From the NCBI RefSeq assembly GCF_024730785.1, contig NZ_CP102830.1, forward strand, positions 3,410,001-3,474,000: a stretch of DNA of 64,000 nucleotides. Reading direction: 5' to 3'. Below, in pieces: positions 9,743-31,172 of the stretch (positions are counted from its first letter, which is position 1; each line of letters begins with the position of its first letter). The stretch is from Pseudomonas sp. LS44 (lineage in GTDB: Bacteria; Pseudomonadota; Gammaproteobacteria; Pseudomonadales; Pseudomonadaceae). Below the pieces are notes generated by a model, which was given only the letters and a program-made list of their open reading frames with translations, searched no databases and had not been told where the DNA came from. The translations under genes were made by a program, and so were the position numbers.

Positions 9743-9767
9743 AAAAAAACCGGCCCTGAGGCCGGTT
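9743..9767 (-). terminator. Rho-independent terminator of the DUF1302-DUF1329 unit
   Basis: On the minus strand AACCGGCC-TCAG-GGCCGGTT is followed directly by a run of seven T residues. It lies 22 bases after the DUF1329 stop codon, so the transcript ends before the regulator gene. Confidence 0.85.
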
Positions 9768-9788
9768 CAATTCACGCCGAATAGAGGC

Positions 9789-11162
9789 TTAGCGCACGCC
9801 CGACTGGCGCAGGGCCGCTGGGGTGAAGTCGCTTTCCGAGGCGCTGTAACCGAAGTCATAGGCCTGCTTCTCTTCGTTCTTCAGGCCCAGCACCAGGTAA
9901 CGGCCGGACTGCAGGTCATACAGGGTTTCGGCGGTGTACCACGGTACTTGGTTGTTGTAGTAGAACTGGTTGTGCGCCTCGGCGACTCGCCACAGCTGGC
10001 CGCGGCCGTCGTAGTGATCGATTTCCACGGCTTGCCAGGTGTCCTCGTCAATGAACATGTCGCGCTTGGCGTAGATGTGCCGCTCGCCCGATTTCAGGGT
10101 CGCGGTCACGCGCCAGACGCGGTGCAGTTCGTAACGGGTCATGTCCGGATTGAGGTGGCCGGGCTTGATGATCTCGCTGTACTTGATCTTCGGATCATCC
10201 ATCTTGTAGCTGTTGTACGGGATGTACAGCTCCTGCTTGCCGACCAATTTCCAGTCGTAGCGGTCCGGCGCACCGTTGTACATGTCCAGGTTGTCGGAGG
10301 TGCGCAGGCCGTCGGCGGCGGTACCCGGGCCGTCGTAGGAAACCTGCGGGGCGCGGCGTACACGGCGCTGGCCGGCGTTGTACAGCCAGGCCAGACGTGG
10401 CTCTTTCACCTGGTCGAGGGTTTCGTGCACCAGCAGGACGTTACCGGCCAGACGCGCTGGCGCGGTGACCCGCTGCTTGAAGTAGAACAGCACGTTGCTC
10501 GGCTTGCTGGCGTCGTAGCCCTTCAGCTTGTCGCTGAACACGAACTCGTCCTGGAAGTACACCAGCGAGTAGGAACCGTTCGGCTGCGGCGTGGCCTGGG
10601 TGACCAGACGGCGCACGCTGCCGCCGCGGTAGCGGGTGATGTGGTTCCACACCGCTTCCAGACCGTTCTGCGGAATCGGGAACGGGTTGGCGGACTTGAA
10701 GTCTTCCAGGCCGTTACCGCCCTCCACCAGCTTGGTGTGCGTGGCGTTGTACTGGGTGGCGGCCAACACTTCCGCCGGCAGGGTGGAGGTGCGATGGCTG
10801 GTGTAGACCGGCAACTTGTAGGTTTCCGGGTAGCGCTTGAGCATCGCCAGCTGACCGGGAGTCAGCTTGTCTTTGTACTGGTCGGCGTTCTGCGCGGTGA
10901 TGGTGAACAGTGGCTTCTCACCCGCGAACGGATCAGACAGGAAGCCCTTGGCGTCGACCGTACCGGCATTCTTCGGCAGACCGCCGGTCCAGGCCGGAAT
11001 GCTGCCATCGGCATTGGCGGCTTTTTCCGCACCAACTGGCGTCAGGGTCGAACCGAGCTTGCTGGCCTGGTCGGCGGAAACCGCCGCCATCACGCTGGTC
11101 GCCAGCAGAGACAAGGCCACGGCGCCGGTTTGCAATAGGCGTTTTGTCGTTTTCATCGTCAT
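9789..11162 (-). CDS. DUF1329 family outer-membrane/periplasmic protein
   Basis: The 457-residue product has a clear signal peptide (KRLLQTGAVALSLLATSVMA, cleavage after AMA/A near 27) and the DUF1329 body with aromatic-rich segments such as RYDWKLVGKQELYIPYNSYK. DUF1329 proteins resemble LolB/LppX-type lipid carriers and are nearly always paired with a DUF1302 beta-barrel. It follows the DUF1302 gene by 22 bases in the same operon. The start at 11162 has AAGGAA upstream. Likely role: passing hydrophobic substrate across the periplasm or outer membrane (inference from family and context). Confidence 0.88.
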   Translation of the reverse strand: MTMKTTKRLLQTGAVALSLLATSVMAAVSADQASKLGSTLTPVGAEKAANADGSIPAWTGGLPKNAGTVDAKGFLSDPFAGEKPLFTITAQNADQYKDKLTPGQLAMLKRYPETYKLPVYTSHRTSTLPAEVLAATQYNATHTKLVEGGNGLEDFKSANPFPIPQNGLEAVWNHITRYRGGSVRRLVTQATPQPNGSYSLVYFQDEFVFSDKLKGYDASKPSNVLFYFKQRVTAPARLAGNVLLVHETLDQVKEPRLAWLYNAGQRRVRRAPQVSYDGPGTAADGLRTSDNLDMYNGAPDRYDWKLVGKQELYIPYNSYKMDDPKIKYSEIIKPGHLNPDMTRYELHRVWRVTATLKSGERHIYAKRDMFIDEDTWQAVEIDHYDGRGQLWRVAEAHNQFYYNNQVPWYTAETLYDLQSGRYLVLGLKNEEKQAYDFGYSASESDFTPAALRQSGVR

Positions 11163-11184: not shown

Positions 11185-13140
11185 TTAGAAGTTCACGCCG
11201 AGGCTCATCGCGACGAAGTCGCGATCATCAACGGTGGTGTACTTGCCATCGAAGAAGTTGGTGTACGACAGGCTAGCGGTGTAGGTGTTCTGGTATTCGG
11301 CATCCACCCCCAGGCTGACGGCCTTGCGGCCTTCCTCGAAGTTGCCGCCCGGGCCCGGCGAATAGCCGTCGACGTCGTGCGACCAAGCCACGTTCGGCTT
11401 GAGGTTCACCCCGGCGAACACGTCGTTGTAATCCCAGATGGCGCGGGCGCGGTAACCCCAGGAATCGGAGGTGGTGTAGCCCTCGCTCTCGCAGTAGCGG
11501 CTGACGTTGTTGGCGTTGGCGGTGCCCAGCGTAGAGATGTTCAGCGCCTGGCAGGACGGCTGGCCGGAGATAGTGCCCGGCAGCGGCCCCGGGCCGAATA
11601 CCGGGTCGCGGCCGTAGCGCGCCTTCGAGGTGCTTTCCAGGCCACCGACGTGGGTCCAGCCAACCTCGCCCACCAGGGTCAGTCGTTCGGCACCCATCAC
11701 CTGATCGAAGAAGTGGGTGAAGGTGGTCTGCAGCTGGCTAATCTCCTTGCGCCGATAGCCGGGCTGGTCCTGGCCGGCGGTGCCGGTGAGCACCGAGGCG
11801 TTGTTGAATGGACGCACCACGCCAAGCGGGGTGGTAATGGCGATCGGGTCCAGGCCGGAGAACAGGATATCGGTGGTATTCAGCTGCACAGGGGCATTCG
11901 GCCGGTAACTGAACTCGCCCTGCCAGGCGGTGCCAGTGGGCAGCGTGGTGGAGAAGCTCAGGCCATACAGGCGGATGTCCTCCGGATACTCCACGAAGTA
12001 GCTTGAGTTTCCGGCCATGCCGGCTGCAGCGACCTGTCCGGCCAGAGCGACAGAGCCCGGTGCAAAGCTGCCAGCGGCAGCGATGTTGCTAGCCAGGCCA
12101 TTGATGCGCGCGGCCGCGCTAGTGGAAGCACCGGCACCGCTGAAGATCGGTGCACGACTGTGGTAGTTCATGGCGTAGGCGCCGAACTCGGTGTCCAGCG
12201 GTTCGAACATATAGCGGAACGCCACGCCGAACTGGCCGCTGTCACGCGCATCGCGGTCCGGGCCGCGCTGGACCACCAGGCCCTCGCCCCACTGCGACGG
12301 AGTAACACCCAGGCCAACGTTGCGCAGTAATCCGTTGACTGCAGCGATCTGCGTCGGGTTGTTGGTCAGCACCGCGAGGTTCTGGTCGCAGCCGTCGGCG
12401 ACCACGTCCGGCTGGGAGAAGAAGGTGCCGCAGTTGTCCACCACGGTCTGGTCCCACTCCAGCTGATAGAAGGCCTCGGCGGACAGGGTTTCGGTCAGGC
12501 TCTGCTGGACGAAGAACATGTTGACCGGAATCAGGCCTTCCTTGACTTCCGCGCCGGGGCGGCGGAACGCGGACACGTCGACCGGGTTGATGCTGTTGAT
12601 GCCGCCCTGGATAAAGGTGCTCTCACCCCAGCTCACCACCTGCTTGCCCAGGCGTGCCGAGCCCGGCTGGTCGGCCACCGCATAGTTGTAGTAGGCGAAG
12701 GCATCGAGCAGTTGCGCGCCGGAAGACTGGGCGCCTTCCTTGCGGTTGTGATCGTCGATGTCTTTGAACAGGCGGCTTTCGTCCTTCAGCTCGAAGTCGT
12801 ACCAGTACTTGCCGCGGGTGAACACGCCGAAGTCGCCGTATTTCAGTTCGAGGTCATGGATGCCCTTGAAGATCTTCGAGAAGGTTTCGCCCTTCTTGAA
12901 GTTCAGGTGGCCGTCATCGGAGGTCTGCGACAGGCCTTTGCCGCCGTTGTTGACGCCGATCAGGTTGCGGTTCGGGTCGGTGGTCGACCAGCTGGCGCCG
13001 ACGGAGAGCGCGGAGTCGAACTGACCTTCGATTTCACCGATGTTGAAATTGACGGCAAAGGCCGGGGAAGCGAGGGAGGAAGCCAGGCTGACTGCCAGCG
13101 GCAGTTTCGCCAGGCGCCAGAATGCTCTTGTTGTGGTCAT
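11185..13140 (-). CDS. DUF1302 family outer-membrane beta-barrel protein
   Basis: The 651-residue product has a signal peptide ending SPAFA/VNF near residue 27 and many alternating aromatic strands ending ...DRDFVAMSLGVNF, with a terminal Phe as in outer-membrane barrels. The family occurs beside DUF1329 in fatty-acid, steroid and aromatic degradation loci and is a candidate channel or transporter for hydrophobic compounds. The ATG at 13140 has GGAGTAGCG upstream. It heads the DUF1302-DUF1329 operon; the 218-bp gap to the acyl-CoA synthetase holds its promoter and that gene's terminator. Confidence 0.88.
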   Translation of the reverse strand: MTTTRAFWRLAKLPLAVSLASSLASPAFAVNFNIGEIEGQFDSALSVGASWSTTDPNRNLIGVNNGGKGLSQTSDDGHLNFKKGETFSKIFKGIHDLELKYGDFGVFTRGKYWYDFELKDESRLFKDIDDHNRKEGAQSSGAQLLDAFAYYNYAVADQPGSARLGKQVVSWGESTFIQGGINSINPVDVSAFRRPGAEVKEGLIPVNMFFVQQSLTETLSAEAFYQLEWDQTVVDNCGTFFSQPDVVADGCDQNLAVLTNNPTQIAAVNGLLRNVGLGVTPSQWGEGLVVQRGPDRDARDSGQFGVAFRYMFEPLDTEFGAYAMNYHSRAPIFSGAGASTSAAARINGLASNIAAAGSFAPGSVALAGQVAAAGMAGNSSYFVEYPEDIRLYGLSFSTTLPTGTAWQGEFSYRPNAPVQLNTTDILFSGLDPIAITTPLGVVRPFNNASVLTGTAGQDQPGYRRKEISQLQTTFTHFFDQVMGAERLTLVGEVGWTHVGGLESTSKARYGRDPVFGPGPLPGTISGQPSCQALNISTLGTANANNVSRYCESEGYTTSDSWGYRARAIWDYNDVFAGVNLKPNVAWSHDVDGYSPGPGGNFEEGRKAVSLGVDAEYQNTYTASLSYTNFFDGKYTTVDDRDFVAMSLGVNF

Positions 13141-18884: not shown

Positions 18885-19050
18885 GCCAATGGCCTCATCA
18901 GCGGCCCTCTGTGCGGGGCTCAGCGTGAGGCGACTATGGCGTGGTGGCGTGGTGGCGGGGATACGTAACAGACTCAGATCCAAAGAGAAAAAGCAGATCA
19001 GATGGCGTTCAGGCGGCGCACCCCTGCAGCTACGCCCGCCCTGACCGAGA

Positions 19051-19464
19051 TCAGCGCAGATGCACCGGCGGGATCGCGTAGGTCCCCACCACGTGGGCGA
19101 CGGGCTCTTCGCCACCTTCCGAATACAGCGACACCTCGCCAATGGCCAGCGTCTTGCCAACCTTCATCAGCCGGCACTCGCCGATGATGCGCTTGCCCGC
19201 CTCCGGCCTTCTCAGGAAGTTGATGGTCAGGTTGGTGGTAACCGCCAACGGCACGATGCCGATCTCGCCGAGCACCGCGACATACAGCGCCACATCCGCC
19301 ACCGCCATCAGCGTCGGCCCAGACACCGTACCGCCGGGACGCAGTTCAGACTCGCCGATTTCCTGCGAGACCGTGGCGCACTTATCGCCGACGGCTTCGA
19401 TGGCGATTCTGGAGTGGGGGAATTCGGTTTTGATGAAGTCGGCAATTTGTTGTTTGGTTGACAT
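19051..19464 (-). CDS. PaaI/YbgC-type hotdog-fold thioesterase
   Basis: The 137-residue protein has the hotdog PaaI layout: LRPGGTVSGPTLMAVADVAL (catalytic loop and helix), then NLTINFLRRPEAGKRIIGEC and a final SLYSEGGEEPVAHVVGTYAI strand. It probably hydrolyses an acyl- or aryl-CoA thioester; the substrate is unknown. ATG 19464 is preferred because the longer reading starts at TTG. It is a single gene between cysI and the repeat/attC region. Confidence 0.88.
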   Translation of the reverse strand: MSTKQQIADFIKTEFPHSRIAIEAVGDKCATVSQEIGESELRPGGTVSGPTLMAVADVALYVAVLGEIGIVPLAVTTNLTINFLRRPEAGKRIIGECRLMKVGKTLAIGEVSLYSEGGEEPVAHVVGTYAIPPVHLR

Positions 19465-19639
19465 GGTCGGGTCCAAGGAATGGCTAATAATTAGGTTTGT
19501 GGCTGTCTAGCGAACGAAGGGGTGCGAGGTTGAATTCTGTAATGACCACTCTCCGCGCCACACTCTATGCCAAGTAAGGCGCGGCGGTAATTGGACATGA
19601 CGGCTCACCCTTGAGCGTTGCGTTGCGGGATACATTGAT

Positions 19640-19730
19640 GGTGGACAAGTAAACGTTGTCCACCCTACCTCTCGATCCCGTAGGGTGGAAAACCGCGAAG
19701 CGTTTTCCACCGCAAGTTATCCACGCTACC
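19640..19730. repeat. REP-like repeat cluster, family R3 variants
   Basis: GGTGGACAAG...CTTGTCCACC-like halves (19640-19668) are followed by GTAGGGTGGAAAACCGCGAAG / CGTTTTCCACC (19680-19712) and TTATCCACGCTACC. It abuts the attC-like site starting at 19732. The rest of the 329-bp gap after the thioesterase (19465-19639) holds nothing I recognise apart from that gene's leader. Confidence 0.65.
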
Positions 19731-19731
19731 T

Positions 19732-19799
19732 CGCTAACGATTAAGCTAAGGGGCGGGCTTTAGCCCGTCCCAGCGAACGAAGTGAGCGATTTGTTAGGC
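19732..19799 (-). mobile_element. attC-like integron recombination site closing the orphan gene cassette
   Basis: Read on the minus strand, the 68-bp site starts GCCTAAC (fits RYYYAAC, and contains the gene's TAA stop), continues AAATCGCTCAC, has an inner hairpin GGGACGGGCT-AA-AGCCCGCCCC, then CTTAGCTTAATC and ends GTTAGCG (GTTRRRY with two mismatches). The outer CTAAC/GTTAG arms pair. Size and order of the boxes are those of attC sites. Confidence 0.65.
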
Positions 19800-20627
19800 G
19801 CTCCCAATTCGTTTCACTACTTGATTCATAGTGTAATGTACGAATTGCGACCCAAGCTCGGTTAGCTGATAGGGTTTTGTATTTTCAAAAGCAGACTCCA
19901 TTGTGCTAGATGAACTGCCTTTGAAACTGCTCTTTGCGGGCGTTTTCTTTACAAACTCACCGTGGTAATTTGTTTCCCTATACTGCCTTATAACGCCGCC
20001 AGTGCTTAAATCTCTAATTAGTAGCTTGAATAAATCCGCTTCTGCGCCATCTTCGCGCGGTATTACGCTACTTACAGACTTCCATATGCCCAAACGAGTG
20101 ATGCCATTGCTTTGATAAATGGCACGAATGACTTTGAAATGAATTTCATGGTATTGATCAAGCCAGTCATTAAAAAGCCGAATTAGGTCATCCGGACACA
20201 TGTTTGTGGAGGCTGAGTTGGAGATAAGATTAACAATGTATTCTTTTTTCTCTTTAGTTTCAGCATTATCCCAGCTTTTGAACGCGCGCCGCACTAGCGA
20301 GAGGTACTCTTCTGAATTTATTCTACTTTCTAGCTGGTCAGGTACTGTCTCTAATCGCTCAGTAACCTCATCTAGAGAAATCATGAGTCCTTCTATTTTG
20401 TGCTTGTGTACTTTTAGCCATTCCTGATACAGCTCATTTACTTCGTCTTGCTCTGGGTCTCCAGAAAACTCTTTCTGCGCCGAAATTATTGGCCCTACCC
20501 AAGGAATTGAGCTCATGGCATTTGCAATTACTCTGTAGTATCTCTTCCACTTGCTTCTATTTTTAATAATAGCAAGATCATAGACAATAAATTCTTCTGT
20601 TCGAATATGTTTATCTTCATTGTCCAT
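19794..20627 (-). CDS. AT-rich orphan protein, probable integron cassette gene of unknown function
   Basis: The 277-residue protein is encoded at much lower GC and with different codon choice from all neighbours, a sign of transfer. The layout has a hydrophobic segment at 32-50 (RVIANAMSSIPWVGPIISA), a charged helical or coiled-coil stretch at 60-105, a helical part around KKEYIVNLISNSAS (128-140), and a probable winged helix at 165-218 (GITRLGIWKSV, LLIRDLSTGGVIRQYR) ending QLTELGSQFVHY. This could fit abortive-infection-alpha/DUF4393-like proteins, but I cannot confirm that by eye. The ATG follows GGAG, and the stop lies inside an attC-like box. No partner gene is present. Confidence 0.75.
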   Translation of the reverse strand: MDNEDKHIRTEEFIVYDLAIIKNRSKWKRYYRVIANAMSSIPWVGPIISAQKEFSGDPEQDEVNELYQEWLKVHKHKIEGLMISLDEVTERLETVPDQLESRINSEEYLSLVRRAFKSWDNAETKEKKEYIVNLISNSASTNMCPDDLIRLFNDWLDQYHEIHFKVIRAIYQSNGITRLGIWKSVSSVIPREDGAEADLFKLLIRDLSTGGVIRQYRETNYHGEFVKKTPAKSSFKGSSSSTMESAFENTKPYQLTELGSQFVHYTMNQVVKRIGSA

Positions 20628-20644
20628 GGCTAATCTCCGGTTGT

Positions 20645-20765
20645 GTCTAACTGGGCTTATAAACCAATTGGTGCATATCACGCCAAACGGGGTTGGTGGG
20701 TACATGCCACGCACAACACAGGCCGCAGCAAACGGAAAGGCAACAGTGGCATATGGCGGTTATGC
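20645..20765 (-). mobile_element. Possible upstream attC-like site / cassette boundary
   Basis: On the minus strand GTTAGAC (20651-20645, fits GTTRRRY) lies 18 bases before the orphan ATG, where a cassette boundary is expected. About 110 bp further upstream, GCATAAC (20765-20759) could be the matching opposite box, with GGGCATAACC / GGTTTATAAGCCC partly pairing inside. The GTTAGAC box is good; the rest is weaker. Confidence 0.4.
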
Positions 20766-20923
20766 CCCATAACGAAAAATCCGTATTCGCAATGTTTTGC
20801 CGAGCCCGAGGTTAGCGTGGCCGATTGAGCAAACACAATCGCCCAATTCCACTACTTCCCTACCACCCCAAAACGACTGTCCGTCGTTAACCCGCGACAA
20901 CTAATCCTCCCTTCCTTTGATAG

Positions 20924-21028
20924 CTCCCACGCTCCAGCGTGGGAGCACCGACCCGCGGCGCTCTGCGCCGCAGGCCCGAGCCGGACGCTGAGCGTCCTGG
21001 GAGGCATTCCCACGCGGAGCGTGGGAAC
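20924..21028. repeat. TCCCACGCTCC-type palindromic repeat, family R6
   Basis: TCCCACGCTCCAGCGTGGGA at the left and TTCCCACGCGGAGCGTGGGAA at the right are two hairpins around GGCGCTCTGCGCC and GACGCTGAGCGTC palindromes. In the 547-bp gap before ccoG this repeat occupies the right half and the attC-like site the left half. Positions 20766-20923 are moderately AT-rich with no recognisable gene. Confidence 0.75.
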
Positions 21029-21174
21029 CATCAGGATTCTCCCTTCCTGCACCAGCCGGATCGGCCACACCCCATCTGATCCGTTTTTTATTCGCCGATC
21101 TGAATCTGTTACTCAATCAGCCTTGCGCGGACCATTCGCCTCATTCCTAGAAAGCTCTGATGAGGCTTAATGCC

Positions 21175-22590
21175 ATGACCGAACGCATCCCCGCCCGGAT
21201 CGTCGAATCCATCGATCCCCAGCCAATCCGCCTGACCCCGTCCCTGGCCGGCGGGCCGATCCACACCCGCAGTTTCAGCGGCCAGTTTCGCAATCTGCGG
21301 CGCTACGGCGCCGGCCTGCTGTGCCTGTTGTTCTTCGGCACGGCCTGGCTGGACTGGGACGGGCGCCAAGCGGTGCTGTGGAATCTCGCCGAACACCGCT
21401 ACTACATCTTCGGCGCGACCTTCTGGCCGCAGGATTTCATTCTCCTGTCGGCGTTGCTGATCATCTGCGCATTCGGCTTGTTCGCCATCACCGTGGTCGC
21501 CGGGCGGGTCTGGTGCGGCTACAGCTGCCCGCAGAGCGTGTGGACCTGGATGTTCATGTGGGCGGAAAACCTCACCGAGGGTGAGCGCCACCAGCGTATT
21601 CGCCTGGATGCCGCGCCTTGGTCGCCGAGCAAGTTGCTGCGCCGTAGCGCCAAACACGGTCTGTGGCTGGCACTCAGCCTGGCCACCGCACTGACCTTCA
21701 TCGGCTACTTCACGCCGATCCGGCCGCTGGCGCTGGAGCTGTTCAGCCTGCAACTGGAAGGCGCCGAGCTGTTCTGGATTTTGTTCTTCACCGGCGCGAC
21801 CTACCTCAACGCCGGCTGGCTGCGCGAGAAAGTCTGCGTGTACATGTGCCCCTACGCACGCTTCCAGAGCGTGATGTTCGATCAGGACACCCTCACCGTG
21901 GCCTACGACGCGGCGCGCGGCGAAGGCCGCGGACCGCGCAAGAAAGGCAGCGACCATCGCGCCGCCGGCCTCGGCGATTGCATCGACTGTCAGCTGTGCG
22001 TGCAGGTTTGCCCGACCGGCATCGACATCCGCGACGGCTTGCAGGTCGACTGCATCGGCTGCGCAGCGTGTGTCGACGCCTGCGATTCGATCATGGACAA
22101 GATGGGCTACGAGCGCGGCCTGGTGCGTTACGCCTCGGAACGCGAGCTGCAGGGCGGCAGCACGCATTGGCTGCGCCCTCGCCTGCTCGGCTATGCCGGC
22201 GCCCTGCTGCTGATGCTTGGCGCGTTCGTCTGGGCGCTGGATGTGCGTCCGCTGGTATCGCTCGAAGTAGCCCGCGACCGCAGCCTGTTCCGCGAGAACG
22301 CCGCTGGGCAGATCGAGAACGTCTATCGCCTCAAGCTGATCAACAAGACCCAGGAACCGCAGCGCTATGCCCTGGGCCTGCTGAATGAAGGGCCGTTCCG
22401 CCTGGAGGGCGCGCACCAGCAATTGCAGCTGGCGGCCGGGGAGATTCTTGAGTTACCGGTAAGCGTCACCCTGACCGCCGCTCAAGCGCCGGCCAGCACC
22501 ACGCCCGTGCAGTTTCAGGTGCGCAACCTGGCCGCTGCCGGCGAGCGGGCCCAGGCCGGCAGCATCTTCATCGCCCCCGCGCTGCGCTGA
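21175..22590 (+). CDS. ccoG: Cytochrome c oxidase accessory protein CcoG (polyferredoxin, FixG family)
   Basis: The 471-residue membrane protein needed for cbb3 oxidase maturation (CcoG/RdxA/FixG) has transmembrane segments near residues 44-62, 88-110 and 165-190, the motif RVWCGYSCPQSVWTWMFMW, a second VCVYMCPYARFQ, two 4Fe-4S ferredoxin clusters (CIDCQLCVQVCP, CIGCAACVDACD) and a C-terminal Ig-like domain. It helps reduce or deliver copper for the oxidase. ATG 21175 has GAGG about 9 bases upstream; ATG 21160 would add five residues. The ccoNOQP genes are not in this window. Confidence 0.93.
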   Translation: MTERIPARIVESIDPQPIRLTPSLAGGPIHTRSFSGQFRNLRRYGAGLLCLLFFGTAWLDWDGRQAVLWNLAEHRYYIFGATFWPQDFILLSALLIICAFGLFAITVVAGRVWCGYSCPQSVWTWMFMWAENLTEGERHQRIRLDAAPWSPSKLLRRSAKHGLWLALSLATALTFIGYFTPIRPLALELFSLQLEGAELFWILFFTGATYLNAGWLREKVCVYMCPYARFQSVMFDQDTLTVAYDAARGEGRGPRKKGSDHRAAGLGDCIDCQLCVQVCPTGIDIRDGLQVDCIGCAACVDACDSIMDKMGYERGLVRYASERELQGGSTHWLRPRLLGYAGALLLMLGAFVWALDVRPLVSLEVARDRSLFRENAAGQIENVYRLKLINKTQEPQRYALGLLNEGPFRLEGAHQQLQLAAGEILELPVSVTLTAAQAPASTTPVQFQVRNLAAAGERAQAGSIFIAPALR

Positions 22591-30997: not shown

Positions 30998-31002
30998 GCA
31001 CC

Positions 31003-31172
31003 CCGTCCTAGGGGAGTAGTCTCCCACGAGCGCCCTGCTCGTATGGTACGCGTCAACATACTTGGTCCACAGACCATGGCGCGTACGACCCAAGCCTGCT
31101 CAGACAGGCTCGCGGTTTGACAAGACCTATGACACGAATGACCTGACCCGGGGTGGGCAGGCGTACGTGTCA
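31003..31172 (+). ncRNA. yybP-ykoY (manganese) riboswitch leader
   Basis: The 245-bp gap before the TMEM165-type transporter contains the class hallmarks: TAGGGGAGTAG near the 5' end, GCGTCAACATACTTGG, and a 3' part GACCCGGGGTGGGCAGGCG, with several internal hairpins (GAGCGCCCTGCTC, AAGCCTGCTCAGACAGGCT). yybP-ykoY RNAs bind Mn2+ and switch on Mn exporters, including TMEM165/GDT1 genes. The call is by eye on the conserved blocks and the downstream gene; the exact 3' limit is approximate. Confidence 0.8.

Follow-up and report, generated by a model that had tools for sequence, protein, structure and literature searches.

How does a single gene, much richer in A and T than the DNA around it and bounded like an integron cassette, come to lie in a Pseudomonas chromosome with no integrase beside it? 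The question arises between cysI and ccoG in Pseudomonas sp. LS44, whose genome is one contig of 4,461,138 bases (NZ_CP102830.1; coordinates prefixed C1), and we addressed it in a stretch of 64,000 nt (C1:3410001-3474000), which we call the window. A single integron cassette outside its array is real here, as a natural example of a known process and nothing new in kind, and the segment 20651-19738 of the window, read on the minus strand, is almost certainly that cassette, intact and stranded. Beside it lies an attI-like stretch that is absent from an earlier note on this DNA and is new here.

Anatomy of the cassette and its attC site

Read directly on the minus strand, the cassette runs from GTTAGAC through 17 bases to the ATG of a 277-codon gene, whose TAA lies within GCCTAAC, and ends in GTTAGCG (Table 1). 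The earlier note, which was silent on the strand, had described an AT-rich gene, GTTAGAC, GCCTAAC at the stop codon and a palindromic site, all of which direct reading bears out. The gene, the start of which is preceded by GGAG, has a GC content of 40.8%, against 62.7% for the window as a whole; when 1264 segments of 831 bases were taken at steps of 50, only one had as low a value, and that one overlaps the cassette gene.

Table 1. Features of the locus, in window coordinates
Feature	Position	Strand	Basis or remark
5′ cassette boundary, GTTAGAC, fits GTTRRRY	20645..20651	-	Sequence; P. benzenivorans cassette similar from 20652 on
Cassette gene, 277 codons plus stop	19794..20627	-	ATG 20627-20625, TAA 19796-19794
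attC, 68 bases	19732..19799	-	Covariance model; BLAST; R″ GCCTAAC 19799-19793, R′ GTTAGCG 19738-19732
Expected crossover	between G 19738 and T 19737	-	
attI-like stretch, resembling attI in the 5′ half only	20661..20702	-	attI model, nhmmer, alignment
Dispersed repeat of the Pseudomonas sp. LS44 genome	19578..19735	+	End 2 bases from the expected crossover
Presumed thioesterase-like gene, between cassette and cysI	19051..19464	-	In the inserted block
REP-like dispersed repeat	20918..21034	+	
Block missing between cysI and ccoG in 11 relatives	19006..21067		Edges from L023
Predicted empty site, 20651-19738 removed			GCCCAGTTAGCGAGG

The attC covariance search that the earlier note had proposed as a check was run with a model whose only training sites were the seven attC of the integron that resides elsewhere in this genome (the home integron), the window site being left out. 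In 64 kb it scored the window attC at 60 bits, with an E of 9.7e-14; the next match in the window reached 10.9 bits (E 2.5), with no other at E up to 10, so that this model found no second attC in the 64 kb. In the whole genome the model found ten sites at E < 1e-8, namely, the seven from which it was built, the window site, C1:2699067 and C1:2700548; an eleventh had an E of 0.48. The window site is 84 to 95% identical to four home attC sites by BLAST, and its best-matching sites come from the arrays of related genomes first and then from the home array. Folding had also been proposed: the 68-mer of the attC (19732-19799), folded plainly and alone, was only mildly unusual (z -1.42 and -2.10), and the second suggested region, taken here as 20645-20771, with z -0.10 and 1.03 (not significant) and no match to the attC model, was rejected as a second attC. 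At its 3′ end the cassette has GTTAGCG, which does not fit GTTRRRY, and R″ and R′ can pair at five of seven positions. When a cassette stands alone or last, whatever comes after GTT is flanking sequence, so that such a mismatch is to be expected.

The window attC is short by nine bases in its 5′ arm (19785-19799). The last home attC (L009:11658-11680) and one attC in the array of genome G013 (L210:5914-5935) have the same short arm, which occurs in none of the complete ones among 132 sites from the other arrays, those of relatives and of P. benzenivorans (L111). By computed folding, 24 of 108 relatives' sites of 74 to 80 nt have as few L-arm pairs or fewer, which makes the window site low but ordinary. 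We considered whether the 9-base loss had fixed the cassette in place, and this was not upheld: the L-arm is ordinary, and the same short arm lies inside the G013 array, so the loss is no marker of stranded cassettes as such.

The cassette gene and its copies elsewhere

The gene is not the orphan that it had been called: with an E cut-off of 0.001, 3838 relatives were found, 120 of which were listed. Among 36 loci of named genomes that encode relatives, the closest copy is that of P. benzenivorans DSM 8628 (L111), in which 262 of 277 amino acids and, at the DNA level, 752 of 831 bases are the same as in the window gene. DNA similarity between the two (89.8% over 915 columns) runs from window position 20652 to 19747 and excludes the flanks, its edges lying one base outside the 5′ boundary and nine bases short of the crossover. 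In L111 the copy heads an array: a canonical attI lies directly before it, and its own attC and then five further attC sites come after it. The gene has evidently moved as a cassette, given that it has the same edges in the P. benzenivorans array. An attC directly follows the gene in L114, L119 and L130 as well (E 0.0017 to 0.0054 with a Pseudomonas-type model applied to the 36 loci) and was seen by eye in L112, L113, L115 and L118; a crude pattern, which misses L113 and some of whose matches are doubtful, gave no match downstream of the gene in 26 of the 36. A protein search of 56 other genomes found the cassette gene in none.

Between the window and P. benzenivorans copies dN/dS is 0.045 with dS at 0.51, which shows the gene to be under purifying selection that has long preserved it. 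Two Pfam models match the cassette protein, both below cut-off; no PADLOC or NCBIfam model matches at E up to 1; and phrog_11520 matches at E 0.0016. PDB profile matches are weak, TenA leading at 0.0078 and winged-helix chains such as histone H5 following from 0.028, and an F-93 winged helix was matched in 4 of 66 family members; taken together, these hint at most at a C-terminal winged helix. PADLOC matches across the family are weak and scattered, the commonest being typeIV_Cas8 (10 of 66, best E 0.0017). Ten chosen neighbor proteins around distant relatives included one HerA-like protein and gained no name for the cassette protein.

The locus between cysI and ccoG

The earlier note had placed the cassette between the cysI and ccoG loci, which is correct coarsely; the immediate neighbor is not cysI but a gene that we take, from its sequence, to be thioesterase-like. 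Among 25 ccoG loci of relatives, 12 have cysI on the same stretch and 13 lack it there. The distance between the two genes is 211 to 358 bp in 11 relatives and ~1.2 kb in L033. On the ccoG side, all 11 match the window from 21068-21073 onward; the cysI-side piece (~18920-19005) is clear in six (L022, L023, L038, L044, L047 and L048), weak in four and not found in L028, and in L023 the two flanking pieces are 8 bases apart. The cassette is absent at this locus in 11 relatives; the earlier note had envisaged an empty site without 19732-20650, but what is missing is a whole block of ~2.06 kb. Besides the cassette and the attI-like stretch, this block holds the thioesterase-like gene, the dispersed repeat and the REP-like repeat. 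Flank searches of 199 and 398 genomes gave, among the matches listed, neither a close strain nor a genome that lacks the cassette alone; the best flank matches listed from the 199 genomes reached ~82 to 84%, and the REP-like repeat explains the listed right-flank matches in other Pseudomonas genomes. The idea that an integron lies beside ccoG in G084 and G198 led nowhere, cysI being the neighbor there.

The left dispersed repeat starts AGCGAGG in the window (at 19735-19738) and in four of its five other printed copies. Elsewhere in the window, at 30999-31118, an Rfam model of the Mn2+ riboswitch (yybP-ykoY) matched at 59.4 bits.

The resident integron and a second array

That no integrase is in view, as the earlier note had remarked, is true of the window and not of the genome. 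Neither tblastn nor a profile search matched IntI in the window, and 20640-21700 holds no remnant. Of eight matches to the intI profile in the genome, only C1:3051718-3052659 exceeds the curated cut-off (489.5 bits against 265); this resident intI is full length and free of stops. It is followed in the home integron (L009) by attI (GTTAGGC at L009:7810) and then by seven attC sites, the whole lying 377 kb from the stranded cassette, where intI is not adjacent as it would be in a complete integron. A second array, at ~C1:2698433-2700621 (L158:5434-7622), has a canonical attI, three cassette-like genes and two attC sites found by the model, and no intI in the scanned stretch upstream.

At the far end of the home array lies a broken gene akin to the thioesterase-like gene (L009 ~12089-12420), together with a weak attC-like stretch of 20.3 bits (L009:12413-12492).

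An attI-like stretch adjoins the cassette

In the attI family formed by the home site and those of relatives, GGTGTCTATTTATAGTTA is nearly invariant in 14 relatives and the upstream part is looser. The stretch next to the cassette resembles this looser (5′) half. An nhmmer search with a set of 13 attI sites that included the home one gave the stretch as the top match in the window (E 0.0075 in 64 kb), and it was the only window match (15.5 bits, E 7.5e-4) of a sequence model, R2, made from the attI sites of 14 relatives with the home attI and the window site left out. It shares 32 of 40 bases with an attI from genome G206; this alignment scores 40, and none of 200 shuffles exceeded 27. The second-best locus overall is an unrelated one of 12.6 kb with a score of 32. 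The stretch's alignment with the home stretch L009 is not significant, 12 of 200 shuffles reaching the same score. Across the genome, the attI model ranked the home attI first (74.2 bits), C1:3336876 second (16.4) and the window stretch third (15.5, E 0.052). TGCACCAATTGG lies 12 bases before GTT in the window, as in the home attI. An off-register pattern with 13 spacer bases instead of 12 matched in 16 of 398 genomes, which shows only an off-register chance rate.

The conserved 3′ half before GTTA is missing, the window having TTTATAAGCCCA where attI has TGTCTATTTATA. We therefore rejected the upstream region as a standard attI and call the stretch attI-like. The match is weak alone, and position, strand and register add weight to it. 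The stretch at C1:3336876-3336917 (L224:3877-3918), likewise attI-like, lies before a gene and has no match to the attC model within 8 kb.

Lone attC sites and attI without intI in Pseudomonas

IntI was found at E 1e-60 or better in 48 of 398 Pseudomonas genomes. An attC at E 1e-5 or better was found in at least 65 of 249, in a survey with stricter filters than that for IntI and with at most 19 candidates scored per genome. Exactly one attC was found in 20 of these 65 genomes, 18 of which are not among the IntI-positive ones, and on this count lone attC sites look common in the genus. We also took 18 further attC-bearing stretches, hand-picked from the genus attC matches rather than drawn at random and fetched such that intI could lie outside them. 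As fetched, 17 showed no trace of intI and one (L216) held a fragment; pattern or model found attI in five (L205, L206, L207, L211 and L222), and pattern matches in L209 and L210 and a second one in L211 were judged spurious. The closest parallel to the window is L222:4478-5015 (genome G168), where an attI of 58.5 bits is followed ~400 bases on by one attC, with no intI in 8 kb; the attI of L111 has none in the 3 kb scanned upstream. Arrays headed by attI without intI thus seem to recur in Pseudomonas, and counts of "clusters of attC" would lump them with stray attC sites.

In the G206 array, two very similar transposase genes, presumably IS110/IS1111-like, each lie ~60 bases from an attC match (L200:7310-8356 and 9763-10824).

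Discussion

The earlier note's stranded single cassette stands, borne out by the attC model, by the L111 copy and by its absence at the locus in 11 relatives; its "orphan" and its "cluster" do not, the latter because there is one attC in the window and a 2025 Xanthomonas study took CALIN, a cluster of attC sites lacking integrase, as at least two attC sites. That the region instead holds a foreign AT-rich gene beside a chance palindrome is scarcely credible: the plain fold of the 68-mer alone is indeed only mildly unusual, but an attC score of E 1e-13 from a model built without the site contradicts it, as does the same gene standing as an array cassette in L111, with homology confined to the cassette.

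How the cassette came to its place is a matter of degree. The intact cassette lies stranded away from any array with an integrase, and we consider it probable that it sits on a decayed attI. A circular cassette, its attC cleaved between G and TT, would have been joined by an integron integrase to the attI-like site AG^TTAGCG; that enzyme may have been encoded at the locus and later lost, or it may have been the resident one working in trans. The local integrase gene would then have been lost and the attI would have decayed. The cassette would now be in effect fixed, because only one good attC is present; PMC2426708, on secondary-site insertions, describes renewed excision as unlikely when a cassette has just one flanking site. 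The P. stutzeri cassette promoter is placed at or within intI in the account of PMC8876359. Since the loss of intI would have taken the usual promoter with it, transcription of the cassette gene would have to start from a local one; a simple scan of 19600-21160 found no sigma-70-like promoter. Sites of attI with cassettes and with no intI in the stretch scanned, at L158 in the same genome, at L111 and in 5 of the 18 picked stretches, favor a decayed attI. Integrase inactivation is described as frequent in PMC3108266. Against a decayed attI stand the absence of the nearly invariant half, the genome-wide E of 0.052, the non-significant alignment with L009, the score of 32 reached by an unrelated locus, the lack of any intI trace and the lack of a cassette-only empty site among the matches listed.

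The same missing half and the same weakness of the attI-like match genome-wide speak for another route, in which the resident integrase, which is full length, inserted the cassette circle at an ordinary AG^TTAGCG of the attG type, so that likeness to attI would be chance or a trait of good targets. Insertion of this kind is established by the accounts in PMC12444791 and PMC12901181 for attG (Loot et al. 2024, Nat Microbiol, as presented there and cited in PMC11023631) and in PMC2426708 for single sites, and a 3′ flank that is a dispersed repeat with its edge 2 bases from the crossover fits a non-integron target. Yet the attI-like stretch is the best match in the window to the attI models, adjoins the cassette and lies on the right strand and in register. 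We regard the secondary-site route as rather unlikely, if still to be reckoned with, and on balance favor an attI platform that decayed and lost its integrase. That the cassette is the tail of a longer array whose other cassettes were deleted or excised would differ from the decayed-attI reading in array length only; the second array of the genome (attI and three cassette-like genes, without intI) and the 17 of 18 picked stretches that show no intI trace as fetched are consistent with it, but the window has no second attC, and we hold it to be improbable.

The locus offers a clean natural instance of a cassette that became fixed away from its integron: another holder of the cassette (the P. 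benzenivorans array), the resident integrase and a candidate docking site are all visible, so that a simple recombination assay can distinguish the relic-attI route from the secondary-site route. It is doubtful, though conceivable, that decayed and intact attI sites without intI (~C1:2698433, the window and perhaps C1:3336876) serve the resident integrase in trans as satellite docking places; if they did, one integron would feed several scattered cassette sites.

The cassette resembles those of the Pseudomonas chromosomal integrons of the P. stutzeri and P. alcaligenes group in its GTTRRRY start, its one gene and its genus-type attC, and differs in standing alone, 377 kb from intI, with an attC that lacks nine bases of the 5′ arm. 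With the P. benzenivorans array it shares the gene and a similar type of attC, whereas the copy there follows a canonical attI and has five further attC sites after it. Like the attC clusters without a nearby integrase, as the 2025 Xanthomonas study delimits them, the window has attC away from any integrase, but one site where at least two were required. It is like attG insertions, as the sources cited above portray them, in being a cassette outside an array with a single attC and GTT at the junction, and differs in that its target looks like a decayed attI.
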